Positions 6,698 through 16,576 of a stretch of 22,287 nucleotides of DNA are shown here, piece after piece. The position numbers and the translations under genes were made by a program. Position 1 is the stretch's first letter, and every line of letters begins with the position of its first letter. This stretch comes from a virus, in the IMG/VR virus record IMGVR_UViG_3300005264_000218, positions 1 to 22,287 of that record, one strand, 5' to 3'. Below the pieces are notes generated by a model. That model did not search any database, was not told the DNA's origin, and saw nothing but the letters and a program-made list of their open reading frames with translations.

Positions 6698-6781
6698 GGA
6701 CCTAATTTCTGGCCAGGACCCGGACCTAATTTCTGGCCAGGACCCGGACCTAATTTCTGGCCAGGACCCGGACCTAATTTC
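6698..6781. repeat. 24-nt tandem repeat, 3.5 identical copies (iteron-like)
   Basis: Units are at 6698-6721, 6722-6745 and 6746-6769, with a half unit at 6770-6781. Each reads GGACCTAATTTC followed by TGGCCAGGACCC. The units are identical, much more GC-rich than surrounding DNA, and contain the palindrome TGGCCA and paired GGACC boxes. Inverted GGTCC boxes lie just upstream (6662, 6678). Identical direct repeats in a divergent intergenic region beside AT-rich DNA fit iterons of a replication origin or a multi-site operator. Transcribed from the promoter at 6600, the GGUCC and GGACC boxes could also pair as RNA hairpins. Confidence 0.85.
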
Positions 6782-7454: not shown

Positions 7455-7973
7455 ATGGCAAAGATAAAATCAAAGAAGAAAGCAAAGCAAATTAAATATG
7501 ATAGTTCTAAGTTGTTTAGATGTAACACCTGTGGTAAAGATAAAACAGCAAAGTCATTTTCAAAAGATGGAAGACATAAAACAGGGTTGAAAGCATTTTG
7601 CAAAGTATGTGAAAAGAAACAAAAGAAACTAGATGACATTGATAAAGAACTTGGTATAACAAAATCATATAGAGATAAACATATTACTGAAAAAATAAAA
7701 GAATCAAGTAATATGGATAAACATATTAGTGAAAGGTTGTCTGATGCTTTATTGGTGTCATTTGGTGAGAACCTTGAAAGTATTGTAACTGAGTTAAACA
7801 ACCTTATATTTTCAAGGGCTACCAAAGATAATGTCAAACTGGCAGGGATTTCTGTGGTACTTGATAGAATTGTTGGGAAACCAAAAGCAGAGATGGTGAT
7901 TGAACAGAAATTGATAAATATAACAATAAACAAGCCAAATCTGGATGATGTCATTGATATACCAAAATCATAA
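7455..7973 (+). CDS. terS: Probable terminase small subunit with N-terminal zinc finger
   Basis: The protein has 172 residues. A basic N terminus precedes a zinc module at about 23-52 (CNTCGKDK... then CKVCEK), followed by a helical linker and a C-terminal part (NVKLAGISVVLDRIVGKPKA) that resembles terminase small-subunit-like proteins. In such phages this subunit recognises the packaging site and recruits the large ATPase-nuclease. Position supports it: first gene of the rightward packaging cluster, before large terminase and portal. SD AGAGG precedes the ATG. The last codons (Lys-Ser-stop) lie inside the 60-nt repeated element. A zinc-finger regulator is the alternative. Confidence 0.55.
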   Translation: MAKIKSKKKAKQIKYDSSKLFRCNTCGKDKTAKSFSKDGRHKTGLKAFCKVCEKKQKKLDDIDKELGITKSYRDKHITEKIKESSNMDKHISERLSDALLVSFGENLESIVTELNNLIFSRATKDNVKLAGISVVLDRIVGKPKAEMVIEQKLINITINKPNLDDVIDIPKS

Positions 7974-8549: not shown

Positions 8550-8569
8550 TTTATGATAGTAAAAATAAA

Positions 8570-9331
8570 GTGTACCAAGAGAATTGTATAGATACAATGA
8601 AAAAAATGGATAAGTATTATACCAAACCTGATATAGTTGATTTATGTTTATCATATATTGATGTTGATAGTTATGATAATGTCATTGAACCAAGTGCTGG
8701 AGATGGGGCATTCTCAACTAAAATAAATTGCACAGCATTTGATATACACCCTAACCACCAAGATATAATACAACAGGATTATCTTGAATATAAACATATA
8801 ATGAAAGGCACTACACTTGTTATAGGCAATCCACCATTTGGGAGAAACAATTCAATGTCATTGGCATTTATCAAACACTCAATTTTCTCTGATTGTATAG
8901 CATTTATATTACCAAAATCATTCAAGAAACAATCACTACAAGATAAAGTTCCAATATATTTTCATTTAATCAAAGAGATTGATATACCACCTGATAGTTT
9001 TATATACAACAATAAATCATATAATGTGCCTTGTGTGTTCCAGATTTGGGAGAAACAAGATATAAAGAGATTGAAACCAAAACCACTAATACCCAAGTCA
9101 TTTTCATTTGTTAAATCAGGGGGTGATGTGAGTATAAGAAGGGTTGGTGTTAATGCTGGTCAGTTGTATACCAATACTGATAAATCTCCATCCTCTCATT
9201 ATTTTCTCAAAGTGGGTGATGGTTTTATTGAAAAGTATAATAAAATAAAATGGTTACATAATAATACGGTTGGGTGTAATAGTATATCAAAGCAAGAGTT
9301 GATAAGGGAGATTGACTATGAAAATAAATAA
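8570..9331 (+). CDS. N6-adenine DNA methyltransferase with a disturbed N terminus
   Basis: The open frame has 253 codons from a GTG at 8570. Motif I is EPSAGDGAF (40-48) for SAM, and motif IV is NPPF (87-90), the adenine-methylating catalytic motif; the rest is likely a target recognition domain. The start is uncertain: the strong SD GGGGAG belongs to ATG 8553, which is one base out of frame, while GTG 8570 and ATG 8597 or 8606 lack good SDs. The first 14 codons (YQENCIDTMKKMD) match the N terminus of the next methyltransferase (YNENCLDTMKRMD), a different class, so this gene looks like a recombinant joined to a borrowed start, with a one-base loss. Activity depends on initiation at an internal Met. 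Confidence 0.75.
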   Translation: MYQENCIDTMKKMDKYYTKPDIVDLCLSYIDVDSYDNVIEPSAGDGAFSTKINCTAFDIHPNHQDIIQQDYLEYKHIMKGTTLVIGNPPFGRNNSMSLAFIKHSIFSDCIAFILPKSFKKQSLQDKVPIYFHLIKEIDIPPDSFIYNNKSYNVPCVFQIWEKQDIKRLKPKPLIPKSFSFVKSGGDVSIRRVGVNAGQLYTNTDKSPSSHYFLKVGDGFIEKYNKIKWLHNNTVGCNSISKQELIREIDYENK

Positions 9332-10121
9332 AATATACAATGAGAATTGTCTTGATACAATGAAAAGAATGGATGATAATTATATTGATTTGACTGTAAC
9401 ATCACCACCTTATGATGGTATGAGAACCTATAAGGGTTATTCATTTGATTTTAAACCAATAGCCAAAGAATTATACAGGGTGACAAAAGAAGGTGGTGTA
9501 GTGGTCTGGGTTGTTGGGGATGCTGTTATTGATGGTAGTGAGACAGGTACTTCATTCAGGCAAGCATTATACTTCAAAGAAATTGGTTTTAGGTTACACG
9601 ATACAATGATATATCAAAAGACAGGAATACCATTCCCTGGCAATGTAAGATACAATCAAATGTTTGAATATATGTTTGTGTTTAGCAAAGGCAAACCAAA
9701 TTGTTTCAATCCTATCTTGAAGAAAAATAAATGTGCTGGTTCTGTAAAACCTAATGGTGCAATGTATAGACAGAAGGATGGTTCATTCAAGAAAAATAAT
9801 GTGAAGAAGATAAAAGAATATGGTGTTGAAGGTAATGTGTGGGTGATAAGTGGTGGAATGAATAAATCAACTAAAGATAAAATAGCATTCAAACACCCAG
9901 CCATATTCCCAGAAGAATTAGCAACCAAACATATAAAATCTTGGAGTAATAAGGGTGATTTGGTATATGATTGTTTTATGGGTAGCGGGACTGTAGCTAA
10001 GTGTGCTATGTTATTGGATAGAAATTATATTGGTTCAGAAATGTCTCAAGAATATTGTGATATAATAAAAGAAAGATTGAAGTCATTGAATAACTTTGGT
10101 CAATTCTTTGGAGAAAGATAA
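9318..10121 (+). CDS. Beta-class DNA methyltransferase (SPPY type)
   Basis: This 267-residue enzyme carries the catalytic motif SPPY (29-32) before the SAM motif DCFMGSGT (218-225), the beta-class order. The target domain lies between them. SPPY enzymes methylate cytosine N4 or adenine N6; I cannot decide which. I chose ATG 9318 because GGGAG precedes it; the frame could extend to a TTG. It overlaps the preceding methyltransferase by 14 nt, so they are co-translated. Complete motifs and usual length indicate an intact enzyme, probably protecting phage DNA from restriction. Confidence 0.85.
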   Translation: MKINKIYNENCLDTMKRMDDNYIDLTVTSPPYDGMRTYKGYSFDFKPIAKELYRVTKEGGVVVWVVGDAVIDGSETGTSFRQALYFKEIGFRLHDTMIYQKTGIPFPGNVRYNQMFEYMFVFSKGKPNCFNPILKKNKCAGSVKPNGAMYRQKDGSFKKNNVKKIKEYGVEGNVWVISGGMNKSTKDKIAFKHPAIFPEELATKHIKSWSNKGDLVYDCFMGSGTVAKCAMLLDRNYIGSEMSQEYCDIIKERLKSLNNFGQFFGER

Positions 10122-10154
10122 TGTGTAAAAACATACCCTCTATGGGGGCTATAT
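10119..10154 (+). repeat. 36-nt element with conserved mini-ORF, copy 1
   Basis: This matches 12155-12190 at 30 of 36 positions without gaps. Both begin at the stop codon of a methyltransferase gene as TAATG, so an ATG overlaps the stop and opens a mini-ORF: MCKNIPSMGAILWI (10121-10165) here. CATA-N5-TATG followed by GGGGGCTAT can form a small hairpin and supplies the SD for the terminase ATG at 10156. It may be a coupled leader peptide or a duplicated gene border. Confidence 0.7.
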
Positions 10155-10155
10155 T

Positions 10156-11082
10156 ATGGATATAAAGATAGACCTGAGTAATATACTTGAAGTGATGAAT
10201 CCTGCCTTTCACTGGCTGTTGGTGAATAAATCAAGAAATGTTGTATTGAGAGGTGGTGCTGGTTCTAGTAAGAGTTATTCTGCTATACAGGCATTATTAT
10301 TCCAGATACTAATAGATTATGATAAACCACCAGTGAATTATCTCCTATTGAGAAAAACACTTCCAGCAGCAAAGAAATCAATCATACCACTGCTGAAACA
10401 TATAATGACAGAATGGGGTTTGACAAGTGATATAGTCAAAGAGAATAAGAGTGACCACACTTTTACATTCTCCAATGGTTCAGTGATACAGGTTGATTCG
10501 TTAGATGACCCAGAGAAAATCAAATCAATATTCAACATCAGTAAGATAATGCTTGAAGAAGCAAATGAATTCACTCTTGAAGATTACTTACAACTCAATC
10601 GGCCAGAAGAAATCAAACATCATACATATTCTTGTGATTTTGGTTTCACTAACCCTACAGCACTAACAAGGGTTGCTGTTCAAGATAATGATATTTATGT
10701 AGATGAATTATTTTATCAATCAAAGAAAACCAATGCACAATTGATTGAATTTATTCAAAATAACACTTCACCTGATGTAATCTATTGTGATTCAGCAGAA
10801 CCAAATAGAATACGTGAAATGAGAAATGCTGGTATAAATGCAAAGAAATCAAAGAAAGAAATAAAGGATGGTATAGATTTTGTAAAGAGACACCATATCT
10901 ATGTAACTAAAAGAAGTAACAACATTCAAACAGAACTCAATACTTACAGATGGCCAGATTCAAAAGATGGCAAAAATGATAAGGATGTTCCAATAGATTT
11001 TATGAACCATGCCTGTGATGCAATAAGATATGGTGCATATACCAAGTGGGGTAGAAAACAATCCTTTGGAGTAATAACATAA
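10156..11082 (+). CDS. terL: Terminase large subunit, copy 1, with internal deletion
   Basis: This is a 308-residue packaging motor protein. The ATPase has Walker A GGAGSSKS (33-40) and Walker B with catalytic Glu (KIMLEEAN, 130-137). The nuclease has Asp161 (CDFGF), Asp212 (CDSAEP) and Asp288 (CDAIRYG). In full-length relatives such as SPP1 gp2 (about 420 residues) some 110 residues lie between the Walker B region and the first nuclease Asp. Here the link is only about 20 residues, joined near LQLNRPEEI, so the coupling motif and linker are absent. The frame is kept. The catalytic residues remain but the motor is unlikely to work normally. A second damaged copy starts at 13255. The stop overlaps the next start (TAATG). 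Confidence 0.85.
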   Translation: MDIKIDLSNILEVMNPAFHWLLVNKSRNVVLRGGAGSSKSYSAIQALLFQILIDYDKPPVNYLLLRKTLPAAKKSIIPLLKHIMTEWGLTSDIVKENKSDHTFTFSNGSVIQVDSLDDPEKIKSIFNISKIMLEEANEFTLEDYLQLNRPEEIKHHTYSCDFGFTNPTALTRVAVQDNDIYVDELFYQSKKTNAQLIEFIQNNTSPDVIYCDSAEPNRIREMRNAGINAKKSKKEIKDGIDFVKRHHIYVTKRSNNIQTELNTYRWPDSKDGKNDKDVPIDFMNHACDAIRYGAYTKWGRKQSFGVIT

Positions 11083-11423
11083 TGAATAAAATAATTTTAT
11101 ACAATGAAGATTTCAATGATTTTGATACAGGCAAACAATATGATGTGATAATAATGAACCCTCCATTTGTTAAATTTGGTGAGAAGTTTATCAAGAAGTG
11201 TATTAGTTTATTGAAACCCGGTGGTTATTTTGGGTGTATTATGTCTCCTACTTGGCGAAGTGTATCAAGTAAGACAGGAAGGCAATATAATAAATCTTAT
11301 ACAATAATGGTACAGGCTGGTGAGTTTATTATGATTCATATGTATTCAACCAAAGAAACCAAAGATGCTTTTGGTCAGTCAATTGGTCAGGTTGATACTT
11401 TTGTATGGAGAAAGAATGACTAA
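11082..11423 (+). CDS. Catalytic half of an adenine methyltransferase (NPPF), N terminus missing
   Basis: This 113-residue protein has DVIIMNPPF with motif IV NPPF at 26-29, followed by LLKPGGYFGCIMSP, the typical strand after motif IV. There is no SAM-binding motif I. The start NEDFNDFDTGKQYD is what normally lies just before motif IV, so the N-terminal half is absent. A matching SAM half occurs downstream at 11870-12157. The ATG overlaps the terminase stop (TAATG). By itself it should be inactive; it may be a gene fragment or half of a split enzyme. Confidence 0.7.
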   Translation: MNKIILYNEDFNDFDTGKQYDVIIMNPPFVKFGEKFIKKCISLLKPGGYFGCIMSPTWRSVSSKTGRQYNKSYTIMVQAGEFIMIHMYSTKETKDAFGQSIGQVDTFVWRKND

Positions 11424-11425
11424 AA
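11407..11425. repeat. 19-nt direct repeat, partner at 11861-11879
   Basis: GGAGAAAGAATGACTAAAA occurs exactly at 11407-11425 and 11861-11879, 454 bp apart. Each copy is the end of one gene (Arg-Lys-Asn-Asp-stop), an SD, and the ATG of the next gene (Met-Thr-Lys), so gene junctions are duplicated. Recombination between copies would excise the gene between them cleanly. Confidence 0.85.
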
Positions 11426-11877
11426 TCACTAATACCAATAGTGATGTATATTACTATGACCTGACTGACTATAAGCAGACAGTCCCAGTACTACCAAAGC
11501 AATTGTATGACAGTTGGTTTGACCAATCCTCTGGGTTGAAGTGGGTTACTGTACCAGCAAAAGGTGGTGCCACAATACCATTTTATGATGTTCTTGGTAA
11601 TGTTAAAAAGGTGAGATATACAACAACAAATATAATAAAAAGAACCAAAGGTAAAAAGGTATTGGTTGATCATAATTTTAATGATTATTATGTAGATGAT
11701 GTGGGTGATGTTATATCAAACAATCATTATATATTCTTTTATGATGATAATAAAGAAAGAGATTGTATTATCAACACCTTACAATTTCTTATTGATAATA
11801 ACCTAAGAGATTTATTCAAAAACAGGGGTGGTTTTGTTAATACTTACATACCAGCAATAAGGAGAAAGAATGACTAA
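11416..11877 (+). CDS. Hypothetical protein between the two methyltransferase halves
   Basis: I chose ATG 11416 (MTKITNTNSDVYYYDLTDY...) because GGAGAAAGA precedes it; the frame could extend to 11365 but without an SD. The 153 residues have a beta-rich centre (VRYTTTNIIKRTKGKKVLVD) and a C-terminal helix then GGFVNTYIPAIRRKND. The ending resembles parts of methyltransferase-associated or target-recognition proteins in my memory, but I cannot name the family. It overlaps both neighbours by 8 nt. Its place between split methyltransferase halves suggests a related role in target binding; this is inference. Confidence 0.5.
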   Translation: MTKITNTNSDVYYYDLTDYKQTVPVLPKQLYDSWFDQSSGLKWVTVPAKGGATIPFYDVLGNVKKVRYTTTNIIKRTKGKKVLVDHNFNDYYVDDVGDVISNNHYIFFYDDNKERDCIINTLQFLIDNNLRDLFKNRGGFVNTYIPAIRRKND

Positions 11878-12157
11878 AAAACACCAAGACATATTTACAC
11901 CTGAATGGATGGTGCAAGAGTTACTTGACCATATACCATTCAAAGATGGTGACACAATACTTGAACCAACGGCAGGTGATGGCAATATGGTTGAGCCAAT
12001 ACTGAAACATTGTAAAGGTGTATCAGTTGAATTGACAGCCAATGAATTACAGAAGAAGCATTATGATATATTGAAAGATAGAGTTATGATTTATGGTGAA
12101 GTAGTTGAAAACAAAACTGGTTCTTTATTTACACAATTATTTGGTGGAAAACACTAA
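11870..12157 (+). CDS. SAM-binding half of an adenine methyltransferase, C terminus missing
   Basis: This 95-residue protein begins MTKKHQDIFTPEWMVQELLD, the usual opening of N6-adenine methyltransferases, and has motif I EPTAGDGN (32-39), but no NPPF motif. It ends in LFTQLFGGKH, which resembles the end of the 9318 methyltransferase (FGQFFGER), so a fusion to a different gene end is likely. Its missing half resembles the gene at 11082-11423. SD GGAG precedes. Either a fragment or half of a split, circularly permuted enzyme. Confidence 0.7.
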   Translation: MTKKHQDIFTPEWMVQELLDHIPFKDGDTILEPTAGDGNMVEPILKHCKGVSVELTANELQKKHYDILKDRVMIYGEVVENKTGSLFTQLFGGKH

Positions 12158-12190
12158 TGTGTAGAAGCATACACACTATGGGAGCTATGT
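12155..12190 (+). repeat. 36-nt element with conserved mini-ORF, copy 2
   Basis: This is the partner of 10119-10154 (30 of 36 identical). The mini-ORF MCRSIHTMGAM runs 12157-12192, starting on the previous stop (TAATG). TGTGTA/TACACA forms a perfect 6-bp stem here. A D12 methyltransferase follows instead of the terminase, which is displaced to 13255; the cassette appears inserted between this leader and terminase copy 2. Confidence 0.7.
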
Positions 12191-12196
12191 AAAAGG

Positions 12197-13255
12197 GTGA
12201 TAAGATACTCAGGAAGTAAAAGTAAAATTATTGATAAGATACTTTTGATAGTAGATGAATATAGACCATCAGTTGTAATGGATGGGTTTGCTGGGAGTGT
12301 AAGAGTATCAAAGGCACTGAAACAATCTGGGTATTCTGTTATATGTAATGACATCAATGAATGGAGTTATATTTTTGGTCAATGTTTTTTATTGAACAAA
12401 CAACCATCTCAGTATTATACAGAAAAAATCAATCATTTGAATAACTTACAACCAATTGATGGATGGTATTCAAATAATTATGGTGGTATTGATAATAATG
12501 GGTCATCTATTCAATTTGATAGTAAGAAAAGAATGTGGCAATTACATAATACAATGTTATTGGATGCTATAAGAGATGAGATTGATATAATAAGTGATAA
12601 TGAGATTGAAAAATCAGTGTTGCTTACAGGTCTTATATTGGCACTTGATAAGGTTGATAATACAATGGGACATCAAACATCTTATTTGAGGGAGTGGTCA
12701 CCTCGATCATATAAGAAATTAGAATTACAAGTGCCTGATTTTATTATTGATAATAACAAACACCAAGTATATCAGGATGACATCTTTGATTTATTGGATA
12801 GACAACAGGCTGATTTATATTATTTTGATCCACCATATGGGTCAAATAATGATCAGACACCAACAACAAGAGTGAGATATACATCATATTATCATATTTG
12901 GAAGACAATCATATTGAATGATAAACCTGATGTATTTGGTGCATCAAATAGAAGGTGTGATAGCAGGGACAAGTATTCAGTATCTATTTTTGAGGAGTAT
13001 AAGAAAGTGGATGGGAAGTTTATAGCAGAGCAGGCAATTGATAATTTGATAGGTAAGGTTGCATCAGGTGTGATTGTGATGTCATATAATAATAATGGCA
13101 GAGTGCCAGTAGAATTACTGAAAGATAAGTTTGATAAGTGTATCAGTTTTGATCATAAATCAAATACAATGACTAATATGACAACCAACAAACAATGGGT
13201 CAATATAAATCATAACACCAATCAAGAGTATTTATTTATAAAGGATAAAAGATAA
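12197..13255 (+). CDS. D12-class DNA adenine N6-methyltransferase, second
   Basis: The protein has 352 residues. YSGSKSKII (4-12), motif I DGFAGS (29-34) and catalytic DPPY (211-214) define the D12 class, and the length is normal. The motif I continuation VRVSKAL is less canonical than the usual G-x-G-like sequence but keeps FAGS. The start is GTG 12197 after AAAAGG; the nearest ATG frame is blocked. The stop overlaps the terminase copy 2 start (TAATG). It is distinct from the D12 enzyme at 1962-3077. It probably protects phage DNA at another site. Confidence 0.85.
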   Translation: MIRYSGSKSKIIDKILLIVDEYRPSVVMDGFAGSVRVSKALKQSGYSVICNDINEWSYIFGQCFLLNKQPSQYYTEKINHLNNLQPIDGWYSNNYGGIDNNGSSIQFDSKKRMWQLHNTMLLDAIRDEIDIISDNEIEKSVLLTGLILALDKVDNTMGHQTSYLREWSPRSYKKLELQVPDFIIDNNKHQVYQDDIFDLLDRQQADLYYFDPPYGSNNDQTPTTRVRYTSYYHIWKTIILNDKPDVFGASNRRCDSRDKYSVSIFEEYKKVDGKFIAEQAIDNLIGKVASGVIVMSYNNNGRVPVELLKDKFDKCISFDHKSNTMTNMTTNKQWVNINHNTNQEYLFIKDKR

Positions 13256-13715
13256 TGGATATAAAGATTGACCTTAGTAATATACTTGAAGTAATGAATC
13301 CTGCCTTTCATTGGTTATTGGTGAATAAGTCAAGATTTGTTGTATTGAAGGGTGGTGCTGGGAGTGGCAAGTCATTCTCTGTGATACAGGCTTTATTATT
13401 CAAGATACTATATCCTATGCTGATAGTGCAGAGCCTCAAAGAATCAAACAAGCAAGAAATCACAACATCAATATGAAGAAAAGCAATAAGTCAATTCTTG
13501 ATGGTATTGACCTCATAAAAACAAAGAAAATATGTGTTACAAAGAGAAGTGTCAATGTAATCAATGAGTTAGGGACATACAAATACGCTGACATCAAAGA
13601 CCAAAAAGAAGTGAAAGAAGTGCCTTTGAAGATTCATGATCATACTATGGATGCTATAAGGTATTGTATTTACACCCATTATGGAAGGAAGAGAAACTTT
13701 GGTGTTGTTACATAA
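13255..13715 (+). pseudogene. terL: Terminase large subunit, copy 2, deleted and frameshifted
   Basis: The N terminus nearly repeats copy 1 (MDIKIDLSNILEVMNPAFHW) with Walker A GGAGSGKS, but after about residue 57 (QALLFKIL) the sequence jumps to the nuclease end. The jump is out of frame: the first frame stops at 13476, while a shifted frame encodes YADSAEPQRIKQARNHNINM and continues to 13715 (DAIRYCIYTHYGRKRNFGVV). Walker B, the linker and the first nuclease Asp are lost. N-terminal DNA is about 85% like copy 1, the C-terminal protein only about half, so copies diverged unevenly. It cannot make a working motor. Confidence 0.85.
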
Positions 13716-15873: not shown

Positions 15874-16311
15874 ATGGAACAAAAAATAATAAAGTATTCA
15901 ACTGAGAAAGCTCAAAAGACAGATAAAGAAAGAGTGTTGAGGTTTATTGGTAGTGATGCAAAAAAAGATAGAGATGGTGATATAGTTGATGGTTGGAAGC
16001 TAACAGAGTATAAGAAAAACCCTGTTGTATTGTTTTCTCATAATTATCACGAAGCACCTGTAGCCAAGACAAAAAAGGTTTGGGTTGATAAAAGCACTAA
16101 TCAATTGATGTTTGAGATTCAATTTCCAGAGGCATCAGTTAGTGCTATTGGGGATTCTTTATTCAAATTATACAAAGGTGGGTTTATGTCCGCTACAAGT
16201 ATTGGCTTCATTCCTGATTATGATAAGATTGAGTATCCTAGAAAGAAGGGTGGTCCGAATAGAATAATGAAAGATGTTAATTTGTTAGAGATTTCACTGG
16301 TGTCTGTTTGA
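15874..16311 (+). CDS. Prohead protease (HK97 U35 family), C terminus lost by frame change
   Basis: This is a 145-residue serine protease core that would cleave the capsid delta domain during maturation. His56 (SHNY), Ser109 (ATSIGF) and Glu139 (LLEISLV) mark the active site by family pattern. The family continues EISLV-SVPANP, but here the frame stops with TGA right after SLVSV. An open frame shifted by one base (16310 onward) continues with an acidic domain. So the core is complete but the C-terminal part is separated, probably by a small deletion. Relatives are about 180-225 residues. SD AAAGGA precedes. Activity of the core alone is uncertain. Confidence 0.8.
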   Translation: MEQKIIKYSTEKAQKTDKERVLRFIGSDAKKDRDGDIVDGWKLTEYKKNPVVLFSHNYHEAPVAKTKKVWVDKSTNQLMFEIQFPEASVSAIGDSLFKLYKGGFMSATSIGFIPDYDKIEYPRKKGGPNRIMKDVNLLEISLVSV

Positions 16312-16324
16312 GATAGTAGATGAC

Positions 16325-16576
16325 TTGGAACTTGACCAAATAGCAAAGTGGTTAGATGATGATACAGATGAAAAAATACTGGATGATAAGACTGATGTGG
16401 TTCTTGATAAAGACATTAATAATGAAACTGATTATGATGCCCTTCTCAAAGAAGTCAAACAAGAGATAGAAGATGACAAGAAAGAGAATTACTTCTATAA
16501 GTTGTTTGAAGAGTATAAAGAAACCATTGAAACAGAAGATGACATCTACCAAGAGATGATAGATGAATTATCATAA
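16325..16576 (+). CDS. Frame-shifted acidic C-terminal part of the protease gene
   Basis: The 83-codon frame could use TTG 16325 but has no SD, and open reading extends upstream to at least 16304 in the same frame. The product is highly acidic (KWLDDDTDEKILDDKTDVVL) and then helical (YKLFEEYKETIETEDDIYQE). Acidic helical tails of this kind occur at the C termini of some phage proteases and scaffolds. It is best read as the detached tail of the protease gene; independent translation is doubtful. Confidence 0.45.
   Translation: MELDQIAKWLDDDTDEKILDDKTDVVLDKDINNETDYDALLKEVKQEIEDDKKENYFYKLFEEYKETIETEDDIYQEMIDELS

Follow-up and report, generated by a model that had tools for sequence, protein, structure and literature searches.

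Two incomplete large terminase genes and a split prohead protease gene in a 22-kb virus record

The terminase region and its intact relative

The virus record IMGVR_UViG_3300005264_000218, whose full stretch of 22,287 bp with linear ends was analysed (the window), contains on the plus strand what is left of two large terminase (TerL) genes of the PBSX/Terminase_3 family. Copy 1 lies at 10156-11082 and copy 2 at 13255-13715, the coordinates given in the original prediction, which were confirmed; the similarity has E values of 1e-25 to 1e-32, far beyond chance. In the Pfam search copy 1 matched Terminase_3 and Terminase_3C, the end of copy 2 matched Terminase_3C, and portal and Phage_capsid genes were found as well. 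Two DNA methyltransferase genes (8570..10121, plus strand) are located between a conserved upstream gene and copy 1, and a methyltransferase cassette (11082..13255, plus strand) between the two TerL copies.

The sole close relative found is IMGVR_UViG_3300005264_000047 (28,588 bp), which is syntenic with the window at about 75-78% nucleotide identity and shares with it the gene order from the portal gene up to where the tail genes begin. In both, TerL, portal, protease and capsid genes follow one another, and the shared parts of copy 1 and the relative's TerL are 82-89% identical in amino acid sequence. The relative differs in having one intact TerL gene of 401 amino acids (1264-2469), present as a single copy directly before the portal gene, where the window has two broken copies; it also lacks both sets of methyltransferase genes at these places. 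Searches for further relatives with the portal, the end of copy 2 and the capsid retrieved none, or the same contig again.

The gene at 7455-7973, upstream of the TerL region, is the counterpart of the relative's 430-912 (45% amino acid identity). It has weak PHROGs matches to endonuclease VII, and a small-terminase assignment would be guesswork based on its position. The window is without the tail region, which comprises about 13 kb in the relative, and neither a host flank nor an integrase could be recognised among the genes examined in it. Phage satellites (PICI or similar) are set apart by the absence of their own capsid and portal genes, and here both genes are present.

A third lesion was found in the prohead protease-scaffold gene (15874..16576, plus strand), which was located by tblastn and by nucleotide alignment with positions 4666-5385 of the relative. 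Near 16308 about 56 nucleotides are lost, including a segment beginning PANP, and the resulting frameshift leaves pieces of 145 and 83 amino acids instead of the 239 amino acids of the relative's intact gene; the Peptidase_S78 match in the window ends at position 144 of 165. Since both pieces stay open, they may still yield a functional protease and, as a protein of its own, a scaffold. Of the window genes that have counterparts in the relative, the only ones found broken were TerL and the prohead protease gene.

What the two TerL copies keep and what they lack

Copy 1, a single open frame of 308 amino acids, joins two parts of the 401-residue orthologue. The N-terminal part (10156..10599) corresponds to residues 1-148 of the relative's TerL, to which it is 89% identical, and covers positions 5-120 of the 201 of Terminase_3, as against 5-201 in the relative, so the ATPase domain is incomplete. 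The nuclease part (10600..11082), a Terminase_3C match, corresponds to residues 243-401 (82% identity) and is in frame with the N-terminal part. As predicted from the sequence, the catalytic residues of both domains are kept: the P-loop GGAGSSKS (with a Ser that 1 of 28 relatives also has at that position), the Walker B and catalytic Glu as EE, and the equivalents of D254, D305 and D381, the three Asp of the RNase H-like nuclease. The prediction that about 110 residues are absent between them was right as to the internal loss, the size of which is 93 residues (about 149-242) when measured against the intact orthologue; at the joint (10599/10600) there is no more than a single Arg codon. An intein or intron was considered and rejected, as sequence is missing rather than inserted.

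The lost segment contains the ATPase coupling strand with its NP motif, the lid and the linker. In the structure that AlphaFold predicts for the relative's TerL (mean pLDDT 89), strands E160-165 and E186-191 of the ATPase sheet belong to this segment, as do the lid helices and the linker. Its residues N166, P167 and G224 do not vary in any of the 28 relatives compared. The closest solved fold for the intact TerL is the D6E large terminase (PDB 5OE8), in which N169 contacts the P-loop lysine, the lid carries Y213 and the linker comprises residues 230-241 (PMC5727402). Read from the alignment with D6E, with a numbering offset of 3, the lost segment includes the equivalents of N169, Y213 and the linker, all of which D6E has and copy 1 lacks. 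In T4, mutants in the coupling motif have lost both ATPase activity and packaging (PMC3012670). When copy 1 itself was modelled, the strand before the P-loop was no longer formed and the pTM was 0.53 as compared with 0.71. For the nuclease part the closest solved fold is the SPP1 G2P nuclease (2WC9). From the lack of the coupling strand, the lid, the linker and the invariant N166, P167 and G224 we infer that copy 1 is not a packaging motor.

The missing middle was not found elsewhere in the window by tblastn. A profile of the lost segment searched against the six frames of the window gave as best match a stretch of 22 residues (E 0.02) that is read from copy 1 in a different frame, which was taken as chance.

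Copy 2 begins (13255..13410) with about 52-53 codons that contain only the P-loop and ends (13411..13715) with the last approximately 100 codons of a diverged nuclease domain (Terminase_3C, E 6.6e-8), which is open over 102 codons and lies in another frame than the 5' end. At the joint, about position 13410, residues 1-52 of the relative are followed by about 297-401, so that about 250 residues are lost, and due to the frame change there is no single open frame with ATPase and nuclease. This agrees with the description of copy 2 as keeping only Walker A and the nuclease end, out of frame. Aligned with the relative's intact 401-residue TerL, both copies are incomplete, and that no intact motor gene is visible holds for the window. 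Structure and conservation indicate that the window as recorded would encode no working packaging motor.

The two ends of copy 2 differ in their similarity to copy 1. Over the first 159 nucleotides the identity is 84%, equivalent to 88% at the amino acid level, and for residues 14-52 it is 85%, versus 55% for the C-terminal part (51% to the relative); that the copies are about 85% identical at the start and only about half at the end had been correctly noticed before. Measured against the relative, the identity of the N-terminal part of copy 2 exceeds that of the C-terminal part by 0.26, whereas in 25 other TerLs this gap has a mean of 0.07 and a maximum of 0.24. The drop in identity coincides with the junction. 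The gap in copy 2 had been described as an internal deletion; residues are indeed absent, but the lineage changes at the junction, which speaks for a mosaic joint rather than a simple deletion. The simplest reading is that copy 2 would be a joint between two TerL lineages with its end from the more diverged one, a reading that is only moderately supported because the N-terminal part is short. Read as a mosaic, copy 2 illustrates on a small scale how terminase genes can recombine internally.

Selection, related terminases and the origin of the lesions

In comparison with the relative, the pN/pS values of the two halves of copy 1 are 0.12 and 0.20, those of the capsid and portal genes 0.14 and 0.22, respectively, and the N-terminal part of copy 2 compared with copy 1 gave 0.22. 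The similar divergence and strong constraint of both halves of copy 1 mean that they belong to one gene that was recently intact, and strong purifying selection on the remnants means that the lesions are recent or artefactual, so that both TerL genes appear to have worked until recently or still to do so in the living population, which probably has an intact TerL. The synonymous divergence (pS) of copy 1 (0.63-0.70) is higher than that of the portal and capsid genes (0.47-0.49), which suggests a recombination history of TerL separate from that of portal and capsid.

The lost 93-residue segment was kept in 160 of the 160 related TerLs measured, and the 308-residue architecture occurred in none of them; 80 came from viral contigs, where neither search pattern fell within the lost segment, and 80 from bacterial and archaeal genome contigs, a set that is biased since one of its two search patterns lay inside the segment. 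In GenBank phages the best 40 matches to copy 1 were all split into two pieces, as expected if those phages hold the segment. A 32-nucleotide pattern adjoining the copy 1 junction had no match in the other viral contigs searched, a set from which near-identical records may be missing. Among known PBSX-family TerLs, those of the Thermoanaerobacterium phage THSA-485A and of Helicobacter pullorum prophages are full-length (about 39-42% identical to the relative's TerL) and differ from the genes of the window in being intact and single copy at the match. Some Paenibacillus and Bacillus TerLs (L092, L094, L096) show similarity to this family only up to residue 241; their ATPase is the same but the nuclease domain is of another kind, as if domains had been exchanged naturally at the linker.

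Most likely the window stems from an ordinary tailed phage with a recent deletion or an assembly fault rather than from a phage with a new kind of motor. The ancestor would have had one Terminase_3/PBSX TerL gene just before the portal gene, as is seen in the relative. The identity pattern suggests that recombination with related phages introduced the methyltransferase cassettes together with a second 5' end of TerL, and left the second TerL a mosaic with its end from a more diverged lineage. Later, copy 1 would have lost the 93-codon piece and copy 2 been joined out of frame, a loss and a joint that are both observed, and these lesions would be either real deletions in a defective genome or consensus faults. 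We regard this history as a whole as probable; in its favour are the single intact 401-residue orthologue that the sole close relative has at the corresponding position and the third broken gene nearby, which is also a morphogenesis gene. Three late-gene lesions beside intact and constrained genes are, however, odd for a decaying prophage, an in-frame copy 1 fits a kept protein (one third of deletions are in frame by chance), and the comparison rests on one close relative.

The history has two branches. With nearly an even chance, the deletions and the copy 2 joint are absent from the phage itself and are joins that arose by amplification, scaffolding or consensus calling in a mixed population of related phages. 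That three junctions fall in essential genes while the other genes are intact and constrained is consistent with such an artefact, as is the switch of lineage at the copy 2 joint, which is what a chimera of two phages would look like; against it, both halves of copy 1 resemble one gene. The simple form of this explanation, an assembly that collapsed between paralogous repeats, had been proposed at the outset and finds no support. The record is without N, and within 150 nucleotides of any junction the longest exact match to elsewhere in the window is 17 nucleotides, with no repeat spanning a junction. As there is no long repeat at any junction, a plain collapse between the two TerL copies inside the contig does not account for the lesions. 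The junctions would fit either a true deletion or a join of different phages present in the sample.

The second branch, to which we give a substantial probability that stays short of even, is that the deletions are true and the genome is defective, either a recent prophage or a deletion derivative packaged by a related helper phage. The joints are clean and the loss is recent, and the databases contain a related phage whose TerL is similar and intact; but no host flank is seen, no helper is known from this sample, and portal and capsid genes are kept, unlike in typical satellites.

It had also been suggested that the in-frame retention of copy 1 could mean a new shortened protein; this would be a short TerL that works or a nuclease with a new role. 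The in-frame joint, the strong constraint on both halves and a nuclease domain that is predicted to be intact and matches the SPP1 G2P nuclease well would fit. Constraint can, however, predate the deletion, the P-loop strand is absent in the model, the invariant N166, P167 and G224 have gone together with two ATPase strands, the lid and the linker, and none of the 160 relatives has this architecture; this reading is thus very unlikely. In its most specific form, copy 1 would be a real, expressed terminase of 308 residues with the nuclease directly on a cut-down ATPase core, acting in a non-packaging role or as partner of an intact motor encoded elsewhere, which we likewise consider highly improbable. 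As the window is incomplete, the rest of the genome may have an intact TerL, though nothing suggests one. The least probable proposal, with barely any chance of being right, is that the unsampled remainder of the genome (the tail region is absent from the window) contains the missing middle, which would be brought in by DNA rearrangement or function as a polypeptide of its own; no trace of it was seen in any frame of the window, and the relative has no such arrangement.

For users of such records the case is a caution that a TerL in a contig can have a good Pfam match and still be without a working motor. The three linked late-gene lesions mark a record whose reads need checking before it is used as a reference.

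Methyltransferase genes and short repeats around the copies

The first part of the cassette between the TerL copies (11082-12157) consists of three small open reading frames with ATGA overlaps, namely a methyltransferase motif IV part, a frame without family and a motif I part. The matched motif parts are in reversed order as compared with phrog_799 and phrog_9133, and the three frames may represent a permuted split methyltransferase. Proteins with motif I only are also found in T4-like phages (KpV477).

Similar short intergenic elements precede copy 1 (10119-10156, GTGTAAAAACATAC...CTATGGGGGCTAT) and the D12 methyltransferase gene (12155-12197, GTGTAGAAGCATAC...CTATGGGAGCTAT). A 59-nucleotide repeat (8563-8621 and 9326-9384, 83% identical) is located at the 5' ends of the two neighbouring methyltransferase genes, which are of different type. 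Farther upstream, at 6698-6781 in the intergenic region, there is a 24-nucleotide tandem repeat in at least three copies.
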